From Acidobacteriota bacterium (GTDB lineage Bacteria > Acidobacteriota > Terriglobia > Bryobacterales > Bryobacteraceae), in assembly GCA_003223115.1 (NCBI GenBank), contig QHXW01000034.1, positions 1-38,213 on the forward strand: a stretch of DNA of 38,213 nucleotides, in the 5' to 3' direction. Shown here in pieces: positions 27,420 to 38,213 of the stretch. The notes beneath the pieces were generated by a model. It worked only from the letters and a program-made list of their open reading frames with translations. It did not search any database and was not told the DNA's origin. The position numbers and the translations under genes were made by a program. The stretch's first letter is position 1; every line of letters starts with the position of its first letter.

Positions 27420-28019
27420 ATGATCAGCCGCGAAAAAGCTCTGGAAATTCTACACGAATTCACAAAGTCTGAAAGCCTGCGCAAGCACGCGCTGGCTGTC
27501 GAAAGCTGTGTGGCGGCCTACGGACGAAAATTTGGGGAGGATGAACTCAAATGGTCTGTGACGGCGCTGCTGCACGACTTTGACTACGAGATCCATCCGG
27601 ACGCGCCCGATCATCCGATGCTGGGAGAGCCCATGCTGGCCGAACGCGGCGTACCCGAGGATGTCCGGCGCGCCATTTTATCGCACGCCAACTATAGTGG
27701 GGTGCCGAGGGTCTCGCCTCTTGAGAAAACTTTATTTGCGTGCGACGAGCTCGCCGGGTTCATCACCGCGGTATCGCTGGTGAAGCCTGGACGCAGCGTG
27801 CATGAAGTGGAAGCGAAGTCGGTTCGCAAGAAAATGAAGGACAAGGCCTTCGCACGTTCAGTGAGCCGCGACGACATCACTCACGGCGCACAGGAACTGG
27901 GCGTCGAGCTGGATGACCACATCGACTTTTGTATCCGCGCCATGCAGGCACGGGCAGCAGAACTCGGGCTGGCGGGAGAAGGCGCACAGAGCAGTCCTGA
28001 AAAATACAATTCAGATTAG
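27420..28019 (+). CDS. HD-domain hydrolase
   Basis: The 199-residue protein has an HD-fold: SLRKHALAVESCVAAYG (first His), SVTALLHDFDYEIHPD (HD pair), RRAILSHANYSGV and FACDELAGFITAV (final Asp). Family members are metal-dependent phosphohydrolases; this small predicted-hydrolase group has no assigned substrate. Start ATG 27420 (MISREKAL) fits; a GTG at 27393 would extend it by nine residues. The last residues, AQSSPEKYNSD, are encoded by cagtcctgaaaaataca, a sequence that recurs at 29537 and 31641. The native C-terminus may therefore have been replaced by a rearrangement joint. Confidence 0.8.
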   Translation: MISREKALEILHEFTKSESLRKHALAVESCVAAYGRKFGEDELKWSVTALLHDFDYEIHPDAPDHPMLGEPMLAERGVPEDVRRAILSHANYSGVPRVSPLEKTLFACDELAGFITAVSLVKPGRSVHEVEAKSVRKKMKDKAFARSVSRDDITHGAQELGVELDDHIDFCIRAMQARAAELGLAGEGAQSSPEKYNSD

Positions 28020-28044
28020 ATTAAGATTAATTAAGGTTAGCTAG

Positions 28045-28314
28045 CTATGCCGAGCACCGCATCGGGACGAACCGTATCTCGACTCGCTGATTCAGCGCGC
28101 CACCGATCCTTCGCGACATTGCCAGGGAATGGCCTTCGTAATCCGCGTCTTCAAGCCGGCAGATGACCGATGCAGTGGAACCGATGAGCTTGGCAAGCTG
28201 AGATTGAGTGAGGCTTGCCGCCGTGCGCAATGCGTGGATTTTGCGGGCGACCTCTTCATGCGCCCGTGCCTCTTCAAGCTTCTTCAGCCGACTCGGCCTG
28301 CCTGCGAAGAAGTA
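28045..28314 (-). pseudogene. XRE-type helix-turn-helix antitoxin, probably truncated at the N-terminus
   Basis: The frame encodes LRTAASLTQSQLAKLIGSTA, then SVICRLEDADYEGHSL and VEIRFVPMRCSA. This is the DNA-binding domain and C-terminal signature of antitoxins of the HigA/XRE kind that end in RVEIRFVP. Coding similarity seems to continue upstream (RLKKLEEARAHEEVARKIH) to a stop codon at 28315, with no ATG or GTG; TTG 28230 is the only convenient start and would remove the first helix. No intact partner toxin is visible. Likely a remnant at the edge of the accessory island. Confidence 0.5.
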
Positions 28315-28357
28315 TCAGTAGGCGCGCGCGGAGGGAAGAAGTAGTTCAAGACGTCAT

Positions 28358-28507
28358 ATGGCAGGCGGACCTCTGCTTCACGAAACCCGATATCGGGATG
28401 CATTTTGGAATGAGCGTGATGCTCTGGCCAAACTACACGCCGAACTACTCCGCCGCGGTTGGATTACAAAAGACGCTCGCTGGACAGTGGCCGAGATTTT
28501 AATTTAA
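28358..28507 (+). CDS. Possible small protein of 49 residues, unknown
   Basis: A short frame starting ATG 28358 reads MAGGPLLHETRYRDAFWNER, DALAKLHAELLRRGWITKDA and ends RWTVAEILI. It has protein-like composition (amphipathic helix DALAKLHAELLRR) and lies opposite and upstream of the antitoxin remnant. No family recognised and no strong ribosome-binding site. It may be a fragment. Bases 28508-28640 show nothing convincing. Confidence 0.25.
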   Translation: MAGGPLLHETRYRDAFWNERDALAKLHAELLRRGWITKDARWTVAEILI

Positions 28508-28640
28508 AGACGGCAGAGTACTGGCGTGTCTTGCGAAGACAAAAAGGTTACGTTGCGAATCCGATAGTAGGCTATGCTGTGTTCCCATTTGAAGACCCGA
28601 TCGTGGCATTGGTCGCCACAACCGATGCTCCGTATCTGAC

Positions 28641-29330
28641 GTAGGGAACGGCGCAAAAGATGCCAACGTAAAGCTCAGCAGCGCTTGGTCAGACATTTTC
28701 GGGGTATCCGGTCAGTTGATGTGGGAAGCGTGGCTGGAAGGCAAAGCGCAACCGGAACAGATCGCGCAGTTTGGCCAACGCCGGGCGCAACGCAAGATTC
28801 CGCAGATCGGGGCCGCCCTGGAAGGGCATCGCAGGAGTGACCACCACCGCCCGATGATTCGCTACAGCCTGGAACATCTGCGTTTCCTGGAAGAGCGCAT
28901 CTTGGAGCTGCAGTTCGTGGGCTGGAGTGTGTCCTGGCAATCACCGTAGCGCAGGCCAGACCCAGGGGAGCAAGACGACCCAGGGGAAACGCTGGTTACG
29001 CGGCGCGCTCACCGAGTGCGCCTGGGGAGTATCCGCCCAAAAGAACTGCTTTCTCAAGGAGAAATTCTGGCGTCTGGCGACCAAAAAACAACGTCAGCCA
29101 CCGGCCACCAGGGCCCTCGCACACACCTTGTGGGTGCTCGGCTATCAGGTGCTGAAAAGCGGTCAACCGGATCAGGAACGAGGTCAGCCAGTGATGGACG
29201 AAACCCAGAGAAACCGCCTCATTTGTCACCATGTCCGGCGGCTCGGCAAACTGGGCATCCGCGTCCGTTCCCTGCCTGTTCCCAAGGAGTCCAGGAAGCG
29301 GAAACCCAACAAGACCGCCCTAAAAGTAAT
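28641..29330 (+). mobile_element. IS110-family transposase remnant with internal deletion and frameshift
   Basis: The first frame contains AWSDIFGVSGQLMWEAWLEG, QFGQRRAQRKIPQIGAALEG and HHRPMIRYSLEHLRFLEERI, the middle region of IS110 (DEDD) transposases. At about 28908-28921 it joins, in another frame, to SWAGVCPGNHRSAG, the conserved start of the C-terminal Transposase_20 domain (W-A-G-x-x-P-G), followed by KTTQGKRWLRGALTECAWG, ALAHTLWVLGYQVLK and CHHVRRLGKLGIRVR. The helix-hairpin segment between the two parts is missing and the N-terminal DEDD catalytic half is absent. The element is inactive. No terminal repeats were identified. Confidence 0.7.
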
Positions 29331-29350
29331 TGATTGTCCGGCAGCCGACG

Positions 29351-29640
29351 AGAATTTTCGGAAGGCAATTCCCATTCTGAACAGTAGCCGGACCTCCGGC
29401 GCGCAGCTTGTGCCACGTTCTTCGATGCGTGCTCGTCTTCAGCGTGGTCAGGAACTCAACCACATCCATGAGTTGCTGCTTCGTCACGGAATTCATGAGG
29501 TCATCGGGCATCATGGAAATCCTGCTGCGGCGCCGCAGTCCTGAAAATACAACTCAGATCAGCACCACGTGAATTTCGCCCGGGCCGTGCACACCCCGAA
29601 CCAGATTTTGTTCGATGTCGTCGGTGCGTGTCCCGCTCGT
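29351..29640. repeat. Duplicated block, copy 1: lutC 3' end plus cytochrome-type C-terminus
   Basis: This stretch is a diverged copy of 31446-31760. On the minus strand it encodes TRTDDIEQNLVRGVHGPGEI with HVVLI and a stop, the last residues of a LutC protein. Separately it encodes MMPDDLMNSVTKQQLMDVVE followed by FLTTLKT, resembling the end of large secreted heme-binding dehydrogenases. Between them lies cagtcctgaaaataca. The copies differ by substitutions and small indels, so the duplication is not recent, or this fragment comes from a paralogous lutC locus. The rest, to about 29751, shows no gene. Confidence 0.75.
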
Positions 29641-29751
29641 CTGGATCGCGGCTCGGAAACTAGCGGGAGTTTCCCACGACGCGAAAGGAAAGGTGGGGTA
29701 TCCTTTCCAGGATGAGGAGGATAGCGCGGGTATTCCGTATATACCACGCGG

Positions 29752-30066
29752 TCAGCCGAGGACGGCTAGCGCGTGAAGAGCTTCCACCATGGGCTTGCGG
29801 TCCTGATCAAACTCTTCGATCTGCCAGCGCACGCGCGGTCGGCCCTTGTTACCCGTTCGATAACTTTGGCGATCCAGGCCGGCCTGGATGCGCAACCCGG
29901 CTTTAGTGGTGGTGTTCCCAATCAGGTGGCCCAACATTTGCGCGGCATCCGCCGCAGCTACCAATCGACGCTGCCGCTCATTCAGATACCAGCTCAGCAC
30001 AGCGTACTTCTTACTACTTCTTACGCAAGCCGGAATCCGAACCGAGGCCATGACGGTATCGTACAA
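29752..30066 (-). mobile_element. Degenerate transposase-like fragment (possibly ISAzo13 type)
   Basis: The frame contains VLSWYLNERQRRLVAAADAA and then QMLGHLIGNTTTKAGLRIQAGL. The LNERQRRL-x-AA phrase is the usual N-terminal motif of ISAzo13-type transposases, followed there by a helix-turn-helix with R-x-T-I-x-x-G-L; the second half here (KGRPRVRWQIEEFDQD) does not match well. No catalytic domain. A weak call from motif memory. Confidence 0.3.
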
Positions 30067-30392
30067 TTTCTCGCTTCATTCAAATGTTCAGCTTATTCGG
30101 TCAAGCCGCCTTATATTGACACTACGGTAGAACTACTCGCCTGATTTCCGTATATATGCATTGGCCGCGCCATCTCCTTTCCTGCCAATGCCTTGCGGAA
30201 GAATCGTGCTGTCGCCCTAGGAAACTCGCGCTAGTCTAGGGTTCGTCGGAACGGTCCGTCTGTTCACCGGGTTAATTCATGGAGTCCCAAACACCGAAGC
30301 CGTTGCGAACGTTTTTACTAGTCGTCAACGACCAGCCGCTCTTCTCCGGGATCAACCTGCGCACCACGCGGTTCTCGACGTTTTAAAAGTCC
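30067..30392. other. Non-coding or decayed stretch
   Basis: I see no supported gene in these 326 bases. A short frame starting ATG 30280 (MESQTPKPLRTFLLVVNDQP) has no family match and ends after 35 residues. Base composition is more AT-rich than the neighbouring genes, as elsewhere in the island. Confidence 0.4.
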
Positions 30393-30683
30393 CTAACGGT
30401 ACGTGTCTTCTCTGCGGAGACTGCAAAACTTGAGGTAGACGACCTGACCTTCAACATCGTATCGAAATCAAAAACGGCCAAGCCGTATGCGGTATTGGCC
30501 TTCGCCGGGCGGCACGTCCTCAAGCTTTCTGACGGGGTGAACTCTCGTGCGGTTGAAAGGGTCAGCCTGGAGGATCGCAAGCACATGTTCAAACGCACCA
30601 ACAAGCTCGCCTCCCTGGCGAGCAAGTTTCCGAAAGTCACGATCGAAGTGGGCAGTGGTGTAAACGGTGAAGGGCGAAGTCAC
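30393..30683 (-). pseudogene. RelE-type toxin gene with an in-frame TGA
   Basis: RelE toxins are ribosome-dependent mRNA endonucleases. From ATG 30683 the frame reads TVYTTAHFDRDFRKLARQGG, then NRTRVHPVRKLEDVPPGEGQ and YRIRLGRF, then TGA at 30468-30470. Reading through, the same frame continues FRYDVEGQVVYLKFCSLRRE and DTYR before TAG at 30393-30395, which completes a normal RelE/ParE C-terminus of about 95 residues. So the break is a single nonsense codon (CGA to TGA would explain it), not a frameshift. The conserved C-terminal active-site region is cut off, so the toxin is probably inactive. It overlaps the antitoxin gene by four bases (ATGA). Confidence 0.75.
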
Positions 30684-30979
30684 ACCTCTTTGCGACGCCG
30701 AGCCCTGCGCTTTGCCGCGTTCTCCTTTCGGAACTCAGCAAGAAGCATTTCGGCCGGTCGCGTCTTTCCCTTGCGAACGTCCTCGTTGCTTTTCTCGATC
30801 GCGCGTTTGACCTTTGGGTTTTGGAGCTCCAAGTAGTCCTCAAGCTCGTCTGCTCTCAGGATACCCGCCACGGGAATCCCATCCTTCTCCAAGATGAAGT
30901 ATTCCTTGTTGCGCACCACGCGCCGAACCACCTGCCCGAGGTTAATTCGGGCTTTTGTAATGGGGAGGTAGTGGACCAT
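30680..30979 (-). CDS. Phd/YefM-type antitoxin
   Basis: The 99-residue protein has the Phd/YefM fold signature at the N-terminus: YLPITKARINLGQVVRRVVR, EYFILEKDGIPVAGIL and LEDYLELQNP. The C-terminal third is highly charged and likely disordered, as expected for the toxin-binding tail. It should bind its own promoter and neutralise the RelE-type toxin encoded next. Start ATG 30979. A promoter and a palindromic operator lie 35-85 bases upstream. Confidence 0.8.
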   Translation of the reverse strand: MVHYLPITKARINLGQVVRRVVRNKEYFILEKDGIPVAGILRADELEDYLELQNPKVKRAIEKSNEDVRKGKTRPAEMLLAEFRKENAAKRRARRRKEV

Positions 30980-31013
30980 TAGGAAAGGTGTTTTCAGCCA
31001 AGACTCCTTAACA

Positions 31014-31063
31014 TTGATTAACGCTAATCAACCACAGTATATCACCCAGCTCCGCCGCGTCAA
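31014..31063 (-). promoter_or_regulatory. Promoter and palindromic operator of the Phd-RelE module
   Basis: On the minus strand TTGACG (31058-31063) and TATACT (31036-31041) are separated by 16 bases, a good sigma-70 promoter. Start of transcription would fall near 31029. ttgatta (31014-31020) and taatcaa (31025-31031) form a perfect inverted repeat with a 4-base spacer over that point. This fits autorepression by the antitoxin, as known for Phd/YefM modules. AAGGAG follows at about 31003-31008. Confidence 0.65.
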
Positions 31064-31445
31064 ACCGGGCCGAAGGAGACGGCGCGCCCGCACCTAGCCA
31101 TTCCCATGTTTCTTAGCGTGGCGTCGGGGACGGACTAGGAGGGAGGGACGGGATTAGGGACGGAGACCGCTAATCCCGATTTTTGCGGACAACTGAACGC
31201 CGGGCGGCCGATCGTTAACATGCCCAGAATGCCCGCGGTTTCGCAAAAGGCGCAGATTGCCCTAATTGGCGCCCCCTCCCACCGCGATTTCAGGGAATCC
31301 GGGTTGTCATCACACCTCCGTAAAATAAGAACTCGCTATGTCCGCCGTGGGTTGACTCAGCGGCCTTCATCGCGCTGTCCTGCTCCGGTTATGTATAGAA
31401 ATGGTGTCGGATCGCTCGGGTCGCCATCCCAAAAGGAGAAAACTC
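31064..31445. other. Non-coding stretch in the accessory island
   Basis: No supported gene in these 382 bases. There is a purine-rich run (gactaggagggagggacggg, 31133-31152) followed by gattagggacggag. The open frames are short and do not look like proteins. Confidence 0.4.
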
Positions 31446-31760
31446 TAATTTTGCGAAACAAAGCCAATTTCCACTTCTGAACAGTGTCCGGATCTCCAGA
31501 GCGCAGCCTGGCCAGTAGCTACTTCGATGCGCGCTCGGTCTTCAGCGTGGTCAGGAACTCGACCACATCCACCAGTTGCTGCTCCGTCATGGAATTCATG
31601 AGGTCTTCGGGCATCATGGAAAGCCTGCTGCGGCGGCGCAGTCCTGAAAAATACAACTCAGATCAGCAGCACTCAGATCAACACCACGTGAATTTCGCCC
31701 GGGCCGTGCACGCCCCGAACCAGGATTTGTTCGATGTCGGCGGTGCGGCTGGGTCCGGTA
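31446..31760. repeat. Duplicated block, copy 2, including a cytochrome-type C-terminal relic
   Basis: Partner of 29351-29640. It spans the last 88 bases of lutC (31673-31760) and the region downstream. On the minus strand 31519-31640 encodes LYFSGLRRRSRLSMMPEDLM, then NSMTEQQLVDVVEFLTTLKT, ERASK and a stop. The M-P-E-x-L...L-V-D-V-V-E-F-L-x-x-L pattern is the usual end of large secreted heme-containing dehydrogenases; the rest of that gene is missing. The joint cagtcctgaaaaatacaa (31641-31658) also occurs at 27989 and 29537. An extra cagatcagcag repeat precedes the lutC stop. Confidence 0.75.
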
Positions 31761-32305
31761 ATCAGCACCATGGAACTGGTTTGATCCGCTGGCCGCGGCA
31801 GATTGCTCAGCAGCTCATCGAGCCCGGTCATCAGACGCGCGCGCTGGACGATGGCGATATGCGCGGGCGGCAACAGCGAGATCATGCGAGCCTCTTCGGG
31901 CGAAGACAGCATCACTAAAGATCCGGTATCGGCGAGCGCATAATCGGCTCCCGTGATGCCCCAGCCGGCGCTGGCGCAGAGGGCGCGGAGCTCGTGGCGA
32001 TCCGTAATGCTTGACCGCACGTTCGGCAGGGCCGTGATGCCACACTCGCGCAGGACAGGCGCATTTGACGCCACAGCGGTTTTTCGGCCGGTGACTGCTT
32101 CGACGTAGGCGCGGGCGTCCTGTTGCGAGGAAGCGCAATACATTTTGCCGGCCAGCGCTTCCAAACGCATACAGAAACTCGCGACACGCGTTTCGATGTC
32201 GACTTCGGGAATGGTCAAGCGAACGGAGGGCGGCGCTGGAATGGGTTGTCCCACGTTACGCCTCAGCGCAGTCCGCACTTTGTGGAGCACGTGGTCGCGC
32301 GACAT
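31673..32305 (-). CDS. lutC: Lactate utilization protein C
   Basis: LutC is one of three subunits of the LutABC complex that oxidises L-lactate to pyruvate. The 210-residue protein has the LUD domain: ADYALADTGSLVMLSSPEEA, LLPPAHIAIVQRARLMTGLD, and TGPSRTADIEQILVRGVHGP near the C-terminus, all typical of YkgG/LutC. ATG 32305 overlaps the lutB stop (TAATG), so the genes are coupled. It is the last gene of the operon, and its 3' end is present again in the duplicated block at 29566-29640. Confidence 0.9.
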   Translation of the reverse strand: MSRDHVLHKVRTALRRNVGQPIPAPPSVRLTIPEVDIETRVASFCMRLEALAGKMYCASSQQDARAYVEAVTGRKTAVASNAPVLRECGITALPNVRSSITDRHELRALCASAGWGITGADYALADTGSLVMLSSPEEARMISLLPPAHIAIVQRARLMTGLDELLSNLPRPADQTSSMVLITGPSRTADIEQILVRGVHGPGEIHVVLI

Positions 32306-33723
32306 TATCGTTCGCGCCACATCTGGCGGAAACTCTTGGCTTGCGGAGCAGGCAGATCGCGCTGGCTCAGCCAGGCGCGGAGCGGAGCGATGCCCATCAA
32401 ACCGGAAGCTTGTTTGATCCAGCCGCCGTTACTCGAGGGCGCAAGTGATGCCGCGGCCATTCCACCGACCTCGTAAATCCGCGGGTGCCGCATGACCCAG
32501 GCGAAGGCGCGAAACGCGAACCGCTCCAGCCACCCGCGGCCATCGCGCTCCTCCGCTTTTTTTACGTCGGAACGTAGCTCCAGCAGAATTTTCGGAATAT
32601 CAATTTTCACCGGGCAAACTTCGGCGCAGGCGCCACACAAACTCGAGGCGAAAGGCAGCGCGGGCTCATGATTCACGCCCAGGAACTGCGGGGTGAGGAT
32701 GGCGCCGATCGGTCCCGAATATACCCAGGGGAAACTGTGACCGCCGATTTTGCGGTACACGGGGCAGTGATTCAGGCACGCCCCACACCGGATGCAATAG
32801 AGCGATTCACGCTTTTCGCGGTCGGCCAGTACTTTGGTGCGGCCATTATCGAGAAGGATGACGTAAAACTCTTCCGGTCCGTCAATTTCACCATCACGAC
32901 GTGGACCCGACAGAAACGAGGTGTAAACGGTCAGGGGTTGGCCGGTGGCACTGCGCCCGAGCAGTTTCAAAAACACAGGCAGATCTTGCGCGCGCGGGAT
33001 GAGCTTCTCGATGCCGGCGATGGCAATGTGAATCTTGGGAGCCGATGTTGTGAGGCGCGCATTACCTTCGTTCTCGACCAGCACCACAGCGCCCGAATCC
33101 GCCACCAAAAAGTTGGCCCCGGAGACGCCGATATCTGCCGCCAGAAACCTCTCACGAAGCACCGAACGCGCAATCAAGGCCTGTTTTTCGATGACTATCT
33201 CGCGCGGCACACCCAGCCGCTCCGTGAACAAGTCGGCCACTTGCTCGCGGGTCTTGTGGAGTACAGGCGCCACGATGTGATAGGGCCGTTCATGCGCCAG
33301 TTGCAGAATATACTCGCCCAGATCGGTTTCAACCGATTCCAAATGATGGTGAGCCAGACGCTCGTTCAGATCCACTTCTTCGGTGACCATGGATTTGGAT
33401 TTAACAACCAAACTGGCGCCGCGTTCCTTGGCGAGATTCAAGATGAAATCAGCAACCTCTTCGGCGTCTTTCGCGTAAACCGCCCGGCCGCCGTGCGCTG
33501 CTAGATTTTGCTCGAACTGCTCCAGGTAATAATCCAGATGGTCGATGGTGTGCTTCTTGACGGCGTTGGCGTGCGTGCGGAGATCCTGATAATCGGGAAA
33601 AACATTGGGAGTGACGGCGTGCCGGCGGTGATCGATGAGGCGTCCTGTAGCGGTGTAAATCGCAAGCTGCAGCTTGGAATCACCGAGCGTCTGGAGGATT
33701 TTCTCGTCAAAGACAGCGGACAT
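32305..33723 (-). CDS. lutB: Lactate utilization iron-sulfur protein B
   Basis: LutB is the large iron-sulfur subunit of the L-lactate oxidising complex. The 472-residue protein combines an N-terminal LUD domain (about 60-290; LVVKSKSMVTEEVDLNERL, FLVADSGAVVLVENEGN) with a ferredoxin-like pair of cysteine clusters, CIRCGACLNHCPVYRKIGG and SLCGACAEVCPVKIDIPK, each suited to a [4Fe-4S] centre. The C-terminal helix region is also typical. Start ATG 33723 is three bases after the lutA stop. Electrons probably pass to LutA or a respiratory acceptor. Confidence 0.93.
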   Translation of the reverse strand: MSAVFDEKILQTLGDSKLQLAIYTATGRLIDHRRHAVTPNVFPDYQDLRTHANAVKKHTIDHLDYYLEQFEQNLAAHGGRAVYAKDAEEVADFILNLAKERGASLVVKSKSMVTEEVDLNERLAHHHLESVETDLGEYILQLAHERPYHIVAPVLHKTREQVADLFTERLGVPREIVIEKQALIARSVLRERFLAADIGVSGANFLVADSGAVVLVENEGNARLTTSAPKIHIAIAGIEKLIPRAQDLPVFLKLLGRSATGQPLTVYTSFLSGPRRDGEIDGPEEFYVILLDNGRTKVLADREKRESLYCIRCGACLNHCPVYRKIGGHSFPWVYSGPIGAILTPQFLGVNHEPALPFASSLCGACAEVCPVKIDIPKILLELRSDVKKAEERDGRGWLERFAFRAFAWVMRHPRIYEVGGMAAASLAPSSNGGWIKQASGLMGIAPLRAWLSQRDLPAPQAKSFRQMWRER

Positions 33724-33726
33724 GAT

Positions 33727-34452
33727 TTATCGGCTCGCTAGAACTTCGGCCAGATGCATGGTGCGGATGGGCAAGCCCAGCCGGGAGATCGCGCCCTGGA
33801 TTTGCATGAGGCAACTGGAATCAACGGAGACCACGGTGGACGCGCCGGTGCGCAGAATCGACTCGATCTTGGTTCTGGCCATGCCGCCTGAAACCTCGGC
33901 GAATTTGATGGAGAAGGTGCCGCCGAATCCGCAGCACTCTTCGGCGATGTCCATCTCGCGCAGCTCGAGACCGCGAACGTTCGAGAGCAGCAGCCTGGGG
34001 CCATCCTTCACCTGGAGTTCGCGCAATGCGTGGCAACTGTCGTGATACGTGACTACTTCTTTGAGCCGCGCGCCGACGTCCTCGACGCCGGCCACTTCGA
34101 TGAGGAACCGCGAGAACTCGTAGACTTTGGTGGCCAGGCGCCGAGCCGCTTCGAGATGCTCCGGCTCTTTTTCGAAAATATCTTCAAAATGATGCGAAAT
34201 CATCGAGGTGCACGATCCGGAGGGGACCACGATGTAATCGGAATCAGCGAACACGTCCAGAAAATGCCGCGCGACCTGCCGGGCCTCCTCGCGGAATCCG
34301 CTGTTGAATGCAGGCTGGCCGCAGCACGTCTGGCGCTCTGGAAAATCAACGTTGAATCCCAAGTGTTCGAGGACGTCGACCACGGCCATTCCTACTTTCG
34401 GAAACAACTGGTCGACGACGCAGGTGACGAACAGGGAAACCCGGCTGGCCAT
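33727..34452 (-). CDS. lutA: Lactate utilization protein A
   Basis: LutA is the cysteine-rich subunit, with two CCG domains like those of heterodisulfide reductase and glycolate oxidase GlpC/GlcF. The 241 residues start MASRVSLFVTCVVDQLFPKV and contain RQTCCGQPAFNSGF in the first repeat and TYHDSCHALREL plus ECCGFGGTFSIKF in the second. These Cys residues bind iron-sulfur clusters. ATG 34452 is the natural start; the frame upstream is not coding-like. The gene is first of lutABC and diverges from the exported-protein gene at 34654. The 201 bases between hold the promoters and the word aggagacagg seen in the CT-rich repeat near 14720. Confidence 0.92.
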   Translation of the reverse strand: MASRVSLFVTCVVDQLFPKVGMAVVDVLEHLGFNVDFPERQTCCGQPAFNSGFREEARQVARHFLDVFADSDYIVVPSGSCTSMISHHFEDIFEKEPEHLEAARRLATKVYEFSRFLIEVAGVEDVGARLKEVVTYHDSCHALRELQVKDGPRLLLSNVRGLELREMDIAEECCGFGGTFSIKFAEVSGGMARTKIESILRTGASTVVSVDSSCLMQIQGAISRLGLPIRTMHLAEVLASR

Positions 34453-34653
34453 TGGAAACACAGATTGTAGCACTGGGGCGGGCGACGGGAGACAGCAGAA
34501 CGTAGGAGACAGGAGCGCGCCGCGATGAAACTGCGGCGGTGAAAACATCCGCGAACTTGATGTGCCGCAATGATGATGCCGCATGCATACTGTACGCTCG
34601 TTCGGTTAAGCCAATTCCAAGCAGCGACTGAAGGCAGAAGGAGGTCTCTGTTG

Positions 34654-35037
34654 GTGAAAAGGCGTATTTCGACAACAAAAGAAAGGGTTTCCTATATGAG
34701 ATGGTACGTCTATACTGCTGCGGTTGCATTTCTCGGCAGCGCGATGCTTTGTTCTACGACGTTTGCCGCGTCGTCGGATCAGAGCGGATTCTCAGCAATC
34801 GAAGGCATCAATGCCCAAGCCTTGTCGGTGGAGGAGATGCAGTCGATTTCCGGCCAGTTGAATTCGTATGACATCGCGGCCGCTCTCACTGCCGAGGCCG
34901 CCAAGCTGACCAAGCACCCGCGATTGCAGGCCGCCGATCTGAGGTTGGCGGAATGGTTCAAAACGAACGCCGTCGCAATCAACGCTTTTTTCCAGAAGTT
35001 CGGAGTGCTTACGCCGTGCCAGACGTGCGGCAAGTAA
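34654..35037 (+). CDS. Exported small protein with leader-like motif and C-terminal CxxC; candidate substrate of the adjacent C39 peptidase
   Basis: Start GTG 34654 follows a perfect AAGGAGGT ribosome-binding site with an 8-base spacing; a later ATG at 34696 has a weaker one. The 127-residue protein has a basic N-region (KRRISTTKER), a hydrophobic core (YTAAVAFLGSAMLCSTTFA) and a likely signal-peptidase site before ASSDQ. Residues 56-67 read ALSVEEMQSISG, resembling the double-glycine leader motif (L-S-x-x-E-x-x-x-I-x-G) recognised by C39 peptidases. After it comes a helical, Ala-rich part (YDIAAALTAEAAKLTK, AADLRLAEWFKTNAVAINAF) ending TPCQTCGK with Cys122 and Cys125. Upstream of the exported C39 peptidase on the same strand. 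I know no family for it. The substrate role is inference. Confidence 0.65.
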   Translation: MKRRISTTKERVSYMRWYVYTAAVAFLGSAMLCSTTFAASSDQSGFSAIEGINAQALSVEEMQSISGQLNSYDIAAALTAEAAKLTKHPRLQAADLRLAEWFKTNAVAINAFFQKFGVLTPCQTCGK

Positions 35038-35188
35038 CTCTACAGGGCTAAGCGTCAGTTTAAGTCACAAGGGCCGCTAGCTGGCGGTTCTTGTGTGTGC
35101 GTCGCGACGCGGTCACAAGGGCACGAGCGAGAGGTTCTTGTGTGCGCGTCGTAACGCCAAATCGGTTGGGTGTGTTCTCCAGGAAGTC

Positions 35189-35968
35189 ATGGTGTTGCCT
35201 ATGCAAAAGGTTCTCCAGTTGGAAACTACTGAGGGTCGCCCCTGCCGAGGCCGCCTTGCAACGGTGGCTGATTTGTTCGCCCTGATCCCATTCATTGCCT
35301 GGACTGGCGGGTGTTGGTGCGCTGACTCACAGGTCCTAGTCAACGCAGGCGCGGCCCGTGAGGAGATCCATGTTATGTCCCTGCGAGCGCGGCGCGACGC
35401 GGGCGTCGTGAAGCAGGGTTACGATTACTCGTGTGGGGCGGCCTCGCTCGCGACGTTGCTGACCTATGGGCTCAATGATGCGGTCGGGGAGGACGCGCTA
35501 CTGCGCGCTTTGCTCGAGCCGCTGTCGCCCGATCAGTTGACCGCCCTGCAGCGAAAGGGTCTGTCGCTGTTCAATCTTCAGCAGCTGGCGCAGAGACGCG
35601 GCCACAAGGCGCAGGGATTCCGCATCCATCGGAGCCAGCTCGTCAACCTCTCATACCCCGTCATCGTATTCATCAAGCCCCACGGCTACCAGCACTTCGC
35701 CGTGTTTAAGGGTCTGCGCGGCGAGCGCGTATACATGGCCGACCCTTCGCTTGGAAATGTCCGCATGCCGCTGTATCGCTTCCTCGACATGTGGGCGGAT
35801 CAGTCGGGCCGCGGCGTGATCTTCGCAGTCGAGAGGGCGGACAGCGTCTGGCCGGACCGCTTTGCATTGCAGCTCGCAGGCGGTGCCGATCTCCCACTGG
35901 AAGTGCTGAGCGCGGCGAGAATGCGCGAGATTGGGAAGCCGTTTCCGCTGATGACCCCGAAAAGGTGA
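35189..35968 (+). CDS. Exported C39-family cysteine peptidase
   Basis: The 259-residue protein has an N-terminal hydrophobic segment (TVADLFALIPFIAWTGG) and then a stand-alone C39 domain: Gln76 and Cys82 in VVKQGYDYSCGAASLATLLT, His169 in KPHGYQHFAVF, and Asp185 in MADPSLGN, so all catalytic residues are present. C39 domains normally sit on ABC exporters and cut bacteriocin leaders in the cytoplasm. Here no ABC part is attached and the enzyme seems to be exported, as in FapD of the Pseudomonas amyloid system. ATG 35189 follows AGGAAG closely; ATG 35201 would also serve. It lies 151 bases after the small exported protein and overlaps the beta-barrel gene by four bases (GTGA). Confidence 0.8.
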   Translation: MVLPMQKVLQLETTEGRPCRGRLATVADLFALIPFIAWTGGCWCADSQVLVNAGAAREEIHVMSLRARRDAGVVKQGYDYSCGAASLATLLTYGLNDAVGEDALLRALLEPLSPDQLTALQRKGLSLFNLQQLAQRRGHKAQGFRIHRSQLVNLSYPVIVFIKPHGYQHFAVFKGLRGERVYMADPSLGNVRMPLYRFLDMWADQSGRGVIFAVERADSVWPDRFALQLAGGADLPLEVLSAARMREIGKPFPLMTPKR

Positions 35969-37227
35969 CCCGTTTGAACCGCTCTCCTCGCCCGTGGGCC
36001 CTGACCATAGCAACCTGTATGACGGCGAGTGCGCTGTGGTTTGCGGTATCCACGGCCGCGGCTCAATCCGTTTCAGGCCGCGAGGTGCTGGACGTTGACG
36101 AAGCAGCCGCCCTGTTGCGGGTAAAGCCTGAGGTCGTTCGGGCACTGGCCGAGTCGCAACGCATCCCTGCCCGCCGTGTGGGGGACGTGTGGCGCTTCTG
36201 GCACGCCGGGCTGCTGGAATGGTTGAAGGGAGATCCGGTCGCGGGAGCGGTGAGCCAACTGTCGGGGCGTTCGACCGGCTTGGACCGAATTGAAACGCTC
36301 GGGCGCGAATCGCGGGACTTGACCGCGAGGGGCGTGAGGCCGGAGCCGCCGCCCCCCACGCAAACGCCGCTGGCAGCGACGCCCCAGGCCCCTTCGACGC
36401 CGCCCACGGTCGGCGAGCGCCCGTCGACGCCGACCACCGAGGAAATAGCCTTGCGCGACCAGCGCGTTCTGCTCAGGCGGGGCGCCGCGACAATCGACTT
36501 CGGCCTGTCGTATGGGCGGAGCGAGCTGACGCTGTTCCCGGTCGTTCGGGCCGAGGAGAAGGACGTCGGCATAAGCGGAACGCTGCGCTATGGTCTGGTG
36601 GACGATTTGCAGCTCACAATGCGCGTACCCGCCATATGGCGTCGCACTACGACCTTTGCCGACGCCACGCTCTCCGGCACCAATTCGCCGCGCATCGCGA
36701 AGACGCCTGCAGGTGTAGCGGGCGATGGGTCCATTTCGCTGTTGGGCGTCGCGTGGCGCGAGGCGGTGGGGCGGCCTACCATTGTGTGGAGCCTTGACGG
36801 CGTGGTGCCCACCGGAGCTGGGGACCGAGGCGTGGGCGGCGGCTTCGTTCTATCCAAGAGCTACGATCCCGCCGTGCTGTTCGCCGGACTTACTTATTTG
36901 TATGGTCTCCGTGTCAATCCGTCGGACTCGCGTTGGTCGCTCGCGAAGCACAATTATGGCTTTCAAGTGGGTTACACTTACGCAGTCAACGAAACTCTTG
37001 CGCTCAGCACGGCGTTCTTGGGTACCTACCGGAACTCGCGTTCGCCGGATGGCGTCGCGATTCCGCCTCCGCGTGAATATTACGCCCTACAACTAGGCAC
37101 AACCTGGTTGCTGGCGCGCGGCCTGTTCATGGAACCCGCCGTAGCGATGCGCCTCGGCGGCGATAATCCGGGCCTCACGGTTTCTCTCAACTTTTCGCAT
37201 TCGTTCCGCTGGCGTAGCAAGCCCTGA
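35965..37227 (+). CDS. Exported helix-turn-helix-fold domain fused to an outer-membrane beta-barrel
   Basis: The GTG start at 35965 overlaps the peptidase stop (GTGA). The 420-residue protein has a signal peptide (RPWALTIATCMTASALWFAV ending STAAAQ). Residues 39-90 are an excisionase/MerR-like helix-turn-helix fold (VLDVDEAAALLRVKPEVVRA, RIPARRVGDVWRFWHAGLLE). A Pro/Thr-rich linker follows at 126-158, then a beta-barrel from about 173 (ATIDFGLSYGRSELTLFPVV, LRYGLVDDLQLTMRVPAIW) ending SLNFSHSFRW, with alternating aromatic strands like outer-membrane transporters. Export of a DNA-binding-type fold is odd; in the periplasm it probably binds protein or glycan. The architecture parallels FapF (N-domain, linker, barrel), but the N-domain is different. 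I infer that it exports or anchors the substrate at 34654. Confidence 0.75.
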   Translation: MTRLNRSPRPWALTIATCMTASALWFAVSTAAAQSVSGREVLDVDEAAALLRVKPEVVRALAESQRIPARRVGDVWRFWHAGLLEWLKGDPVAGAVSQLSGRSTGLDRIETLGRESRDLTARGVRPEPPPPTQTPLAATPQAPSTPPTVGERPSTPTTEEIALRDQRVLLRRGAATIDFGLSYGRSELTLFPVVRAEEKDVGISGTLRYGLVDDLQLTMRVPAIWRRTTTFADATLSGTNSPRIAKTPAGVAGDGSISLLGVAWREAVGRPTIVWSLDGVVPTGAGDRGVGGGFVLSKSYDPAVLFAGLTYLYGLRVNPSDSRWSLAKHNYGFQVGYTYAVNETLALSTAFLGTYRNSRSPDGVAIPPPREYYALQLGTTWLLARGLFMEPAVAMRLGGDNPGLTVSLNFSHSFRWRSKP

Positions 37228-37329
37228 GAGCATCGGAAAATCTCCGCGGAAAACCTGCCGCAGTCGGGTCGGTTCAGAAGCAGCCGCCACGAAGAGGTCG
37301 CCGGTTCGCCTTCTGGCCCGCACTCTCGC

Positions 37330-37848
37330 CATCATCCAAAAGTCGTTGATCCGCTGAGCCTCGTAGACCTTCTTCCATCCACCGCCTGGAACTAAAGCTC
37401 CAATCGTTGCGCCCAGTATCGCTCCGGCTGGTGTAAGGACGGCCTTTCCAAGATCGAGGGACAACCACTCGTCTTGGTTTGCCCTATCGGAAGCAGCCCC
37501 CGCGCCCAATCCTATGCCTCCCCCACGAGCGAACCGATGAGAGCATGCCGGCCGCGACGCCCTTCACGCTTTACCAGGACCTGTGTGACACTCTGCCATT
37601 CGAAGGTCTGGTCCCCTGTCGGCAGGTGAACGACCATGGCGTTGCCGGCCACGCTCTGGAACGTGCCACGTTGAGCACTGCCATAGCTGACAAGCACCTT
37701 GGCTTCGTCGCCTCGTGCAAGGTTGCCGAGGTTGTTCCAACTCGCTTTGCGCCGTCGAGGGCCCGGATGCCAGGAGTGAAGAAATAGTCGCCGGGCCGAG
37801 ACTTGCCATCAAGGGCACGACAAAGAGAATACGCGTTAGTTGAGTCAT
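37330..37848 (-). pseudogene. Exported glycine-zipper-type protein, frameshifted
   Basis: Starting at ATG 37848, TQLTRILFVVPLMASLGPAT is a signal peptide. Near 37750 the sense moves to a second frame (KASWNNLGNLARGDEAKVLV, TFQSVAGNAMVVHLPTGDQT, EGRRGRHALIGS). Near 37525 it moves to a third (GIGLGAGAASDRANQDEW, AVLTPAGAILGATIGALVPG, GWKKVYEAQ). This order matches a family common in Acidobacteriota: an N-terminal W-N-N-L...G-x-x-V-x-V segment with a small beta domain and a Gly-rich membrane-seeking segment ending near G-W-x-x-V-Y. Function unknown. The end is not defined because no stop follows at the expected place. It is convergent with the barrel gene. Confidence 0.55.
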
Positions 37849-37979
37849 GAAATGATCCTTTCGTTACGACCTTCAAAGAAATCTGCCGCGCAGGGCGAAA
37901 GAAGTCCTTCCAAAGTTCTGACAAAGTCCTCACAAAATTCTCTTGGACTTTAAAACCTGCCAGGCGGAGGAGTTATGCG

Positions 37980-38213
37980 ATGCGGGCACTCTGCATCGAA
38001 CCTGGCGACCGGCTGCCGTTCAGGTTGCCCATCACAGGTGTTGTACAACCACCGGGACGCTGGCTTCATTGCCATCGAACTTTCTCGGAAGGACAGCCCG
38101 AGCAAGCCCTCGTCGAGATCCGGCGTGCCCGAACGCTCGATGCACTTTCCCTCATCATCAACATCGGTGTGGGGTGGTATTATTACCATGCCCACCGGTA
38201 CGATGAGGCGATC
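37980..38213 (+). CDS. TPR-repeat protein, 5' part only (runs off the window)
   Basis: From ATG 37980, preceded by GGAGGAG at eight bases, an open frame continues to the window edge (78 residues). The last part, FSEGQPEQALVEIRRARTLD followed by ALSLIINIGVGWYYYHAHRY and DEAI, is a tetratricopeptide repeat pair of the kind found at the C-terminus of winged-helix/TPR or kinase-TPR proteins (L-x-x-A-L-x-E-I-x-x-A...L-D-x-L-S-L-I-I-N). The first 35 residues do not resemble TPR, so the gene may be a truncated or rearranged copy. Confidence 0.5.
   Translation, partial: MRALCIEPGDRLPFRLPITGVVQPPGRWLHCHRTFSEGQPEQALVEIRRARTLDALSLIINIGVGWYYYHAHRYDEAI

Follow-up and report, generated by a model that had tools for sequence, protein, structure and literature searches.

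The window analysed here is the whole of contig QHXW01000034.1 (38,213 nt) from the genome of a soil bacterium of the Acidobacteriota; its end, at position 38213, is the contig end and lies 1 kb downstream of the locus of interest. That locus consists of three consecutive genes on the plus strand, encoding a small exported protein (gene 1, 34651..35037), a stand-alone C39 peptidase (gene 2, 35189..35968) and a FapF-type outer-membrane barrel (gene 3, 35965..37227). We read it, with moderate confidence, as a locus that secretes a peptide in two steps, in the manner of the Fap and Nap systems. A preliminary description of the same DNA had already seen in it one secretion and processing locus with a post-Sec substrate candidate, an exported C39 enzyme and a barrel, all three in order and in open frames, and this is supported by the present analysis. 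The further claim that such a locus is of an undescribed kind does not survive: a C39 peptidase together with a FapF barrel is known for the Fap system from passages of PMC5557850, and passages of PMC11798529 describe for the nap island of Neisseria gonorrhoeae the C39 peptidase NapP, the FapF homologue NapF and the small cationic double-glycine (GG) peptides NapA-C. What is new is a feature within a known kind of locus, namely that a helix-turn-helix (HTH) domain replaces the coiled coil of a FapF-type barrel.

The peptidase and barrel genes

Gene 2 starts with ATG at 35189, after AGGAAG, and its stop at 35968 overlaps the GTG start of gene 3 at 35965 in the sequence GTGA, as previously described. 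Its product passes the Pfam family Peptidase_C39 (PF03412; 5.4e-17, 62.3 bits against a cut-off of 22) and has all four of the residues Q76, C82, H169 and D185, which we take to be the oxyanion Gln and the catalytic Cys, His and Asp. There is no transporter part in gene 2, in agreement with the statement that no ABC (ATP-binding cassette) transporter is attached to the peptidase. Within NCBIfam the best match is pilus_FilB (2.9e-28, 99 bits against a cut-off of 475), and C39_FapD scores nearly the same (5.2e-28, 97.8 bits against an equivalog cut-off of 330), so that gene 2 can be thought of as a peptidase of FapD/FilB type that lies below the cut-offs of both families. Fil is a putative pilus system of Acinetobacter; the likeness of the window locus to it consists in FilB being the best match of gene 2, and the difference in the distance from the FilB cut-off and a match to pilus_FilC of only 0.01.

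Export segments and signal peptides were judged throughout from hydropathy and by eye. In gene 2 the hydrophobic segment is VADLFALIPFIA (mean Kyte-Doolittle value 2.2), preceded by a long and atypical N-region. (The earlier picture of an exported C39 enzyme with a full triad holds for the triad and for the presence of an N-terminal hydrophobic segment; with its atypical N-region, that segment is where the observation is least secure.) A C39 protein in a gonococcal record, possibly NapP, matches gene 2 at 40% over residues 55-214. The genome to which the window belongs encodes, in addition, a second exported C39-like protein (locus L002, 1453-2418, minus strand). Next to it is encoded another exported protein, small in size, which contains the stretch LSDEEVASLA and is hydrophobic towards its C-terminus; the pair is presumably of the PA2778/PA2779 type.

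The product of gene 3 comprises a signal peptide (residues ~1-34), an HTH_17 domain (~39-90), a Pro-rich linker (~93-160) and a barrel (~163-420). Similarity to FapF itself is found in the last third of the barrel, residues 281-414, where phmmer matches the solved FapF structures 5o67 (7.7e-7) and 5o65 (8e-7), and where the NCBIfam FapF model (FblAmlydTptrFapF) has its best stretch (8.5e-10, 38 bits, below the equivalog cut-off of 700). A model made from 15 other barrels matches with 95 bits in total, the best domain (90 bits) extending over residues 111-414. By this measure of homology, which spans the whole barrel, gene 3 is a FapF-type barrel in the wide sense. (A structure model of the barrel from a 2-sequence alignment had a predicted local distance difference test score, pLDDT, of 30 and was not used.)

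The HTH domain is recognised by Pfam at residues 41-88 (4.7e-9, 36.8 against a gathering score of 27), and its counterpart in the closest relative of the locus, on contig QHYZ01000090.1, scores 38.8; that the N-domain of the barrel is an HTH and not a coiled coil, as first proposed, is thereby borne out. Gene 3 shares this domain with HTH_17/excisionase-type DNA-binding proteins. It differs from them in that the domain stands behind a signal peptide, whereas the relatives retrieved with the barrel query have neither a signal peptide (by eye) nor a barrel. The signal peptide of gene 3 places the HTH domain outside the cytoplasm.

Ratios of nonsynonymous to synonymous substitution (dN/dS), calculated from the one sequence pair of window and QHYZ01000090.1, are low for the C39 gene (0.18), the HTH domain (0.19, 57 codons) and the barrel (0.30), and higher for the signal peptide (0.63) and linker (0.66). 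The value for the HTH is the lowest among the four parts of the gene 3 protein. Because its dN (0.08) is close to that of the barrel (0.09) and the differences are without statistical test, all that can safely be said is that HTH and barrel are conserved to about the same degree. A claim of stronger selection on the HTH than on the barrel is weakened by this; the main reading of the locus does not depend on it.

Across all scans, the combination of HTH and barrel is confined to the window and QHYZ01000090.1. Among 396 genomes of the phylum 11 were matched, and the window's own genome alone had both parts (at most 4 candidates scored per genome); the same was true of 200 genomes of its own family, 12 of them matched (at most 9 candidates). 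Three of 89 genomes in the family of G122 were matched, G122 alone with both parts (at most 20 candidates), and in the phylum of G599 there were 10 matches in 297 genomes, none with both (at most 6 candidates). A single HTH-only match came from 72,556 plasmid records and no HTH-barrel from viral contigs. With candidates per genome limited in this way distant HTH-barrels may be missed, and the genome contig collection was scanned with the C39 and not the barrel. The HTH-only matches lie in open reading frames (ORFs) at 14 of 15 loci (the exception is L125) and at three of four in a second set; in none of these ORFs was a signal peptide (by eye) or a barrel seen, and most are short (that of L024 runs on into a receiver-like stretch). 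Among the literature matches listed for FapF with Acidobacteriota or helix-turn-helix, none treats FapF.

Passages of PMC6173795 report that the periplasmic domain of FapF is essential for secretion and that a coiled coil is present in all FapF homologues. In the barrels inspected here by eye, a coiled-coil N-domain is seen at 11 loci of a 12-genome family, in Polymorphobacter and Croceicoccus and at L106; an LSM/SH3-like domain is possible at L064 and L104 (Pfam LSM 0.22 for L064, below cut-off); and N-domains are absent from L105, L107 and an Acinetobacter plasmid. An HTH-bearing member of the FapF family amounts to a natural swap experiment for pore gating and substrate recruitment. One might go further and suppose that the periplasmic HTH still binds DNA, so that DNA passing into or out of the envelope gates peptide release or is coupled to it, or, more generally, that what a FapF-type barrel recruits is decided by a replaceable module at its N-terminus, be it a coiled coil, an HTH, perhaps an LSM/SH3-like domain or none at all. 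We regard this as a long shot.

The candidate substrate and the post-signal motif

Gene 1 starts with TTG at 34651 or GTG at 34654 (ATG at 34696 is possible too), preceded by the Shine-Dalgarno-like sequence AGAAGGAGG, and stops at 35037. Its hydrophobic export segment is AAVAFLGSAMLC, and past the signal peptide lies a site of double-glycine type, ALSVEEMQSISG|Q, whose proposed cleavage glycine is correctly G67 if numbered from GTG 34654. Cutting after SISG would yield a product of 60 residues and 6.6 kDa, with an isoelectric point of 9.2, a charge of +2.8 and the C-terminus CQTCGK. No amyloid-type repeats are seen in gene 1, as had been noted. It has no Pfam or NCBIfam match and no match in viral contigs. 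The sole other match among 250 genomes of the class, in G150 (E 0.0097), is on the strand opposite to an intact gene of 667 residues and was for that reason put down to chance. A structure model of the gene 1 product alone (pLDDT 47) was not used.

Exported proteins linked to C39 peptidases have in common a stretch following the signal peptide, for example AISDSELGSVTAQEG, ALADNQMDKVTAAGE, ALSEEVLARQRGGIR and ELSRQEMKDTQGAFV; the counterpart in gene 1, in the same register, is ALSVEEMQSISGQLN. A weight matrix for this motif was made from 25 stretches (effective number 16), which were chosen by eye in genes for exported proteins in the vicinity of the peptidase; gene 1 was excluded, and the threshold for a motif call was set at 14. 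Gene 1 scores 14.4, a value reached by 23 of 20,000 shuffles; the best score of the 38 other ORFs of the window is 8.2. Twelve of 311 further ORFs reach 14.4; 11 of these are closely related to genes used for training, and the twelfth (L078) codes for a small exported protein in the neighbourhood of another C39. The motif match of gene 1 is more than chance. Motif genes of different loci are otherwise unlike in sequence, and it is therefore not surprising that homologues of gene 1 are missing. (The motif is common to amyloid-like, microcin-like and orphan candidates, and so offers a testable answer to the question of what FapD-type peptidases recognise.)

The arrangement recurs elsewhere in the phylum. 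The FapD model matches 46 of 396 Acidobacteriota genomes at E <=1e-8, none (0/396) over the family cut-off, and 15 of these matches stand apart as strong (<=4e-23). All 15 neighbourhoods were inspected, that of G099 as a 3.5-kb locus only (L010). In 14 of them the C39 gene has a FapF-like barrel no more than ~4 kb away (the exception, L063, is near a contig start), and a same-strand gene with the gene 1 motif is found near the C39 gene in all 15. Co-occurrence, on which the preliminary description had staked its proposal, thus holds for C39 and barrel, which are regular neighbours at strong Acidobacteriota loci. Independent cases are few, since twelve of the 15 come from a single family and the loci also supplied part of the material for the motif matrix and the barrel model (gene 1 and gene 3 did not). 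Regions of five of the other 31 FapD-matching genomes were inspected: in four regions there are weakly matching C39 genes in a different context, and two have no match to gene 2. Five of the 74 plasmid records that matched the C39 were inspected, and barrel and motif genes are present near the C39 on plasmids of Polymorphobacter, Croceicoccus, Cupriavidus and Acinetobacter; that of Indioceanicola (L088) has neither.

Three variants encountered in this survey are recorded here in their own right. A plasmid of Acinetobacter sp. SAAs474 (L087) encodes a C39 peptidase, a FapF-like barrel that has no N-domain, and three small exported proteins in which the site is the same throughout, LSRQEMKDTQGA; it looks like a bacteriocin-type version of the system. 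One Acidobacteriota family (L065-L074, L081) has Fap-like operons made up of a large Asn/Ser-rich motif protein, a small motif protein, a C39 peptidase and a coiled-coil FapF-like barrel; passages of PMC3792158 report Fap as restricted to three proteobacterial classes. Three Smithella/Syntrophaceae metagenome-assembled genomes (L019, L020, L021) have a C39 gene behind 3-6 exported genes that share the post-signal motif, and a FapF-like barrel elsewhere in each genome.

The motif and its setting make it likely, at the level of sequence, that gene 1 encodes the substrate of the C39-barrel pair. A number of observations weigh against this, and against a functioning secretion locus altogether. The site is SGQ, not GG. 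The margin of the motif score is thin (14.4 vs 13.5 for the best of the remaining 299 ORFs), and of six C39 loci outside the matrix L107 alone gave a gene at threshold, L104, L105, L106, L108 and L088 giving none (inspection by eye does reveal a similar site at L104-L106, despite the matrix miss). Gene 1 is separated from gene 2 by 151 bases that hold repeats. No convincing homologue of gene 1 is found in the 250 genomes of the class, its own included, and its role as a substrate is therefore one that we infer; nor is gene 1, or any motif gene, found beside the closest C39-barrel pair, that of QHYZ01000090.1 (L018/L075). This relative does not keep the atypical export segment of gene 2, and the reading frame of its C39 gene is interrupted by a TAG at the position of window residue 135, its barrel frame being open. 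Finally, the Nap peptides promote autolysis and have no detectable antimicrobial activity, according to passages of PMC11798529, and the closest analogue therefore fixes no function. That gene 1 is without convincing homologue and missing beside the closest pair speaks against it as a constant third gene of the locus, although other motif genes take its place elsewhere.

The same observations lend themselves to another explanation, in which peptidase and barrel genuinely belong together, gene 1 codes for an exported protein that has nothing to do with them and happens to lie upstream, and the real substrate is encoded elsewhere in the genome or past the contig end. This would account for the lack of homologues of gene 1 and its absence from QHYZ01000090.1, it is compatible with the DNA shared with that relative starting within the C39 gene and with the contig stopping at 38213, and the Smithella/Syntrophaceae genomes, with barrels apart from C39 and substrates, provide a precedent. 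On the other hand, a motif of this kind behind a signal peptide is rare by chance, a motif gene is near the peptidase at every strong Acidobacteriota locus, and motif genes are so unlike between loci that missing homologues are unsurprising. We consider an unrelated gene 1 possible but doubtful.

Origin of the C39-barrel pair

A block of ~2 kb (35295..37291, no strand assigned), beginning inside the C39 gene, is 85% DNA-identical to QHYZ01000090.1, and to either side of it the sequences are unrelated. Although the two genomes come from different families, dS between them (0.31 for the barrel gene, 0.45 for the C39 gene) is low for that distance. Two other members of the genus share DNA with the window up to position 34472 and then continue with other genes, the C39-barrel region being missing. 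Horizontal acquisition of the C39-barrel pair is, from these comparisons, the likeliest explanation. Mis-binning of the contig was rejected in view of the DNA that the window shares with these two genus members and of a neighbouring lut-like gene, which we take to be lutB-like: it has matches in seven of 13 genomes of the window's own family (five at 66-73% identity) and in none of three from the family of the relative.

Acquired DNA may of course be in decay, and a fragment without function is what the relative might suggest, its C39 gene being broken as well as 5'-truncated (residues 1-33 are missing); the absence of the region from the two genus members could be taken in the same sense. In the window, on the contrary, all frames are open, the catalytic residues are complete and dN/dS is 0.18-0.30 for C39, HTH and barrel, which makes decay an unlikely account of the locus.

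A possible secretion route and its known counterparts

In the two-step scheme favoured here the gene 1 product would cross the inner membrane by Sec, as its signal peptide indicates. In the periplasm the C39 peptidase would cleave the double-glycine-type site, behind the G of ...SISG|Q, to release a 60-residue, 6.6-kDa cationic peptide. The peptide would then exit through the FapF-type barrel, opened, by analogy with FapF, through displacement of a helix in front of the barrel. The periplasmic HTH, in place of the FapF coiled coil, might hold barrels together or receive the substrate for pore opening, and probably acts by protein contact rather than DNA binding. The C39-barrel pair may move between bacteria and work with whichever motif-bearing gene adjoins it.

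The nap island resembles the window locus in its C39 peptidase and its FapF-homologous channel, and probably in its small (<10 kDa) cationic peptides with double-glycine sites and its horizontal acquisition. It differs in belonging to another phylum, and the window locus has one peptide without known relatives, SGQ in place of GG and an HTH on the barrel. In size (6.6 kDa) and charge (+2.8) the predicted gene 1 product falls in the range of nap GG peptides, though its site, with a motif score of 14.4, is SGQ; it appears to fit their description better than that of an amyloid subunit. A Nap-like or signalling role would seem more likely for it than an amyloid one.

FapD of Pseudomonas has a Sec signal, is periplasmic and requires its active-site Cys for secretion; passages of PMC5557850, which report this, called its target unclear in 2017. 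The window locus shares with Fap an exported C39, a FapF-type barrel and the order substrate-peptidase-barrel, and these relatives of FapD and FapF are what could make it a strict functional-amyloid system with gene 1 as the fibre subunit. Against this, gene 2 and gene 3 score far below the NCBIfam Fap cut-offs (97.8 of 330 and 38 of 700), gene 1 is without repeats, the barrel has an HTH for a coiled coil, and no FapE-like neighbour is apparent by eye. (What this means operationally is that neither amyloid repeats nor FapA, FapB, FapC or FapE were seen by eye in the translated ORFs of 31000-38213, no family models having been run.) A strict Fap system is highly improbable.

The gap between gene 1 and gene 2 contains an imperfect 39-nt direct repeat pair (35072..35157, start to start 47 bases) and, inside this repeat region, a palindrome (35090-35119), neither with an assigned strand. 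At E 0.001 the intergenic stretch has only its self-match within its own genome. A promoter scan around gene 1 gave no promoter-like site, and a terminator scan two terminator-like sites vs 1.4 in shuffles. On the minus strand 3' of the barrel gene, at 37093-37697, two adjoining frames appear by eye to be one frame-shifted small gene. Farther upstream, the segment from an HD-domain-like gene to the lut-like genes (27977-31671) is missing from the two genus relatives, and a part of 31600-31747 recurs, at 84%, in 29497-29628.

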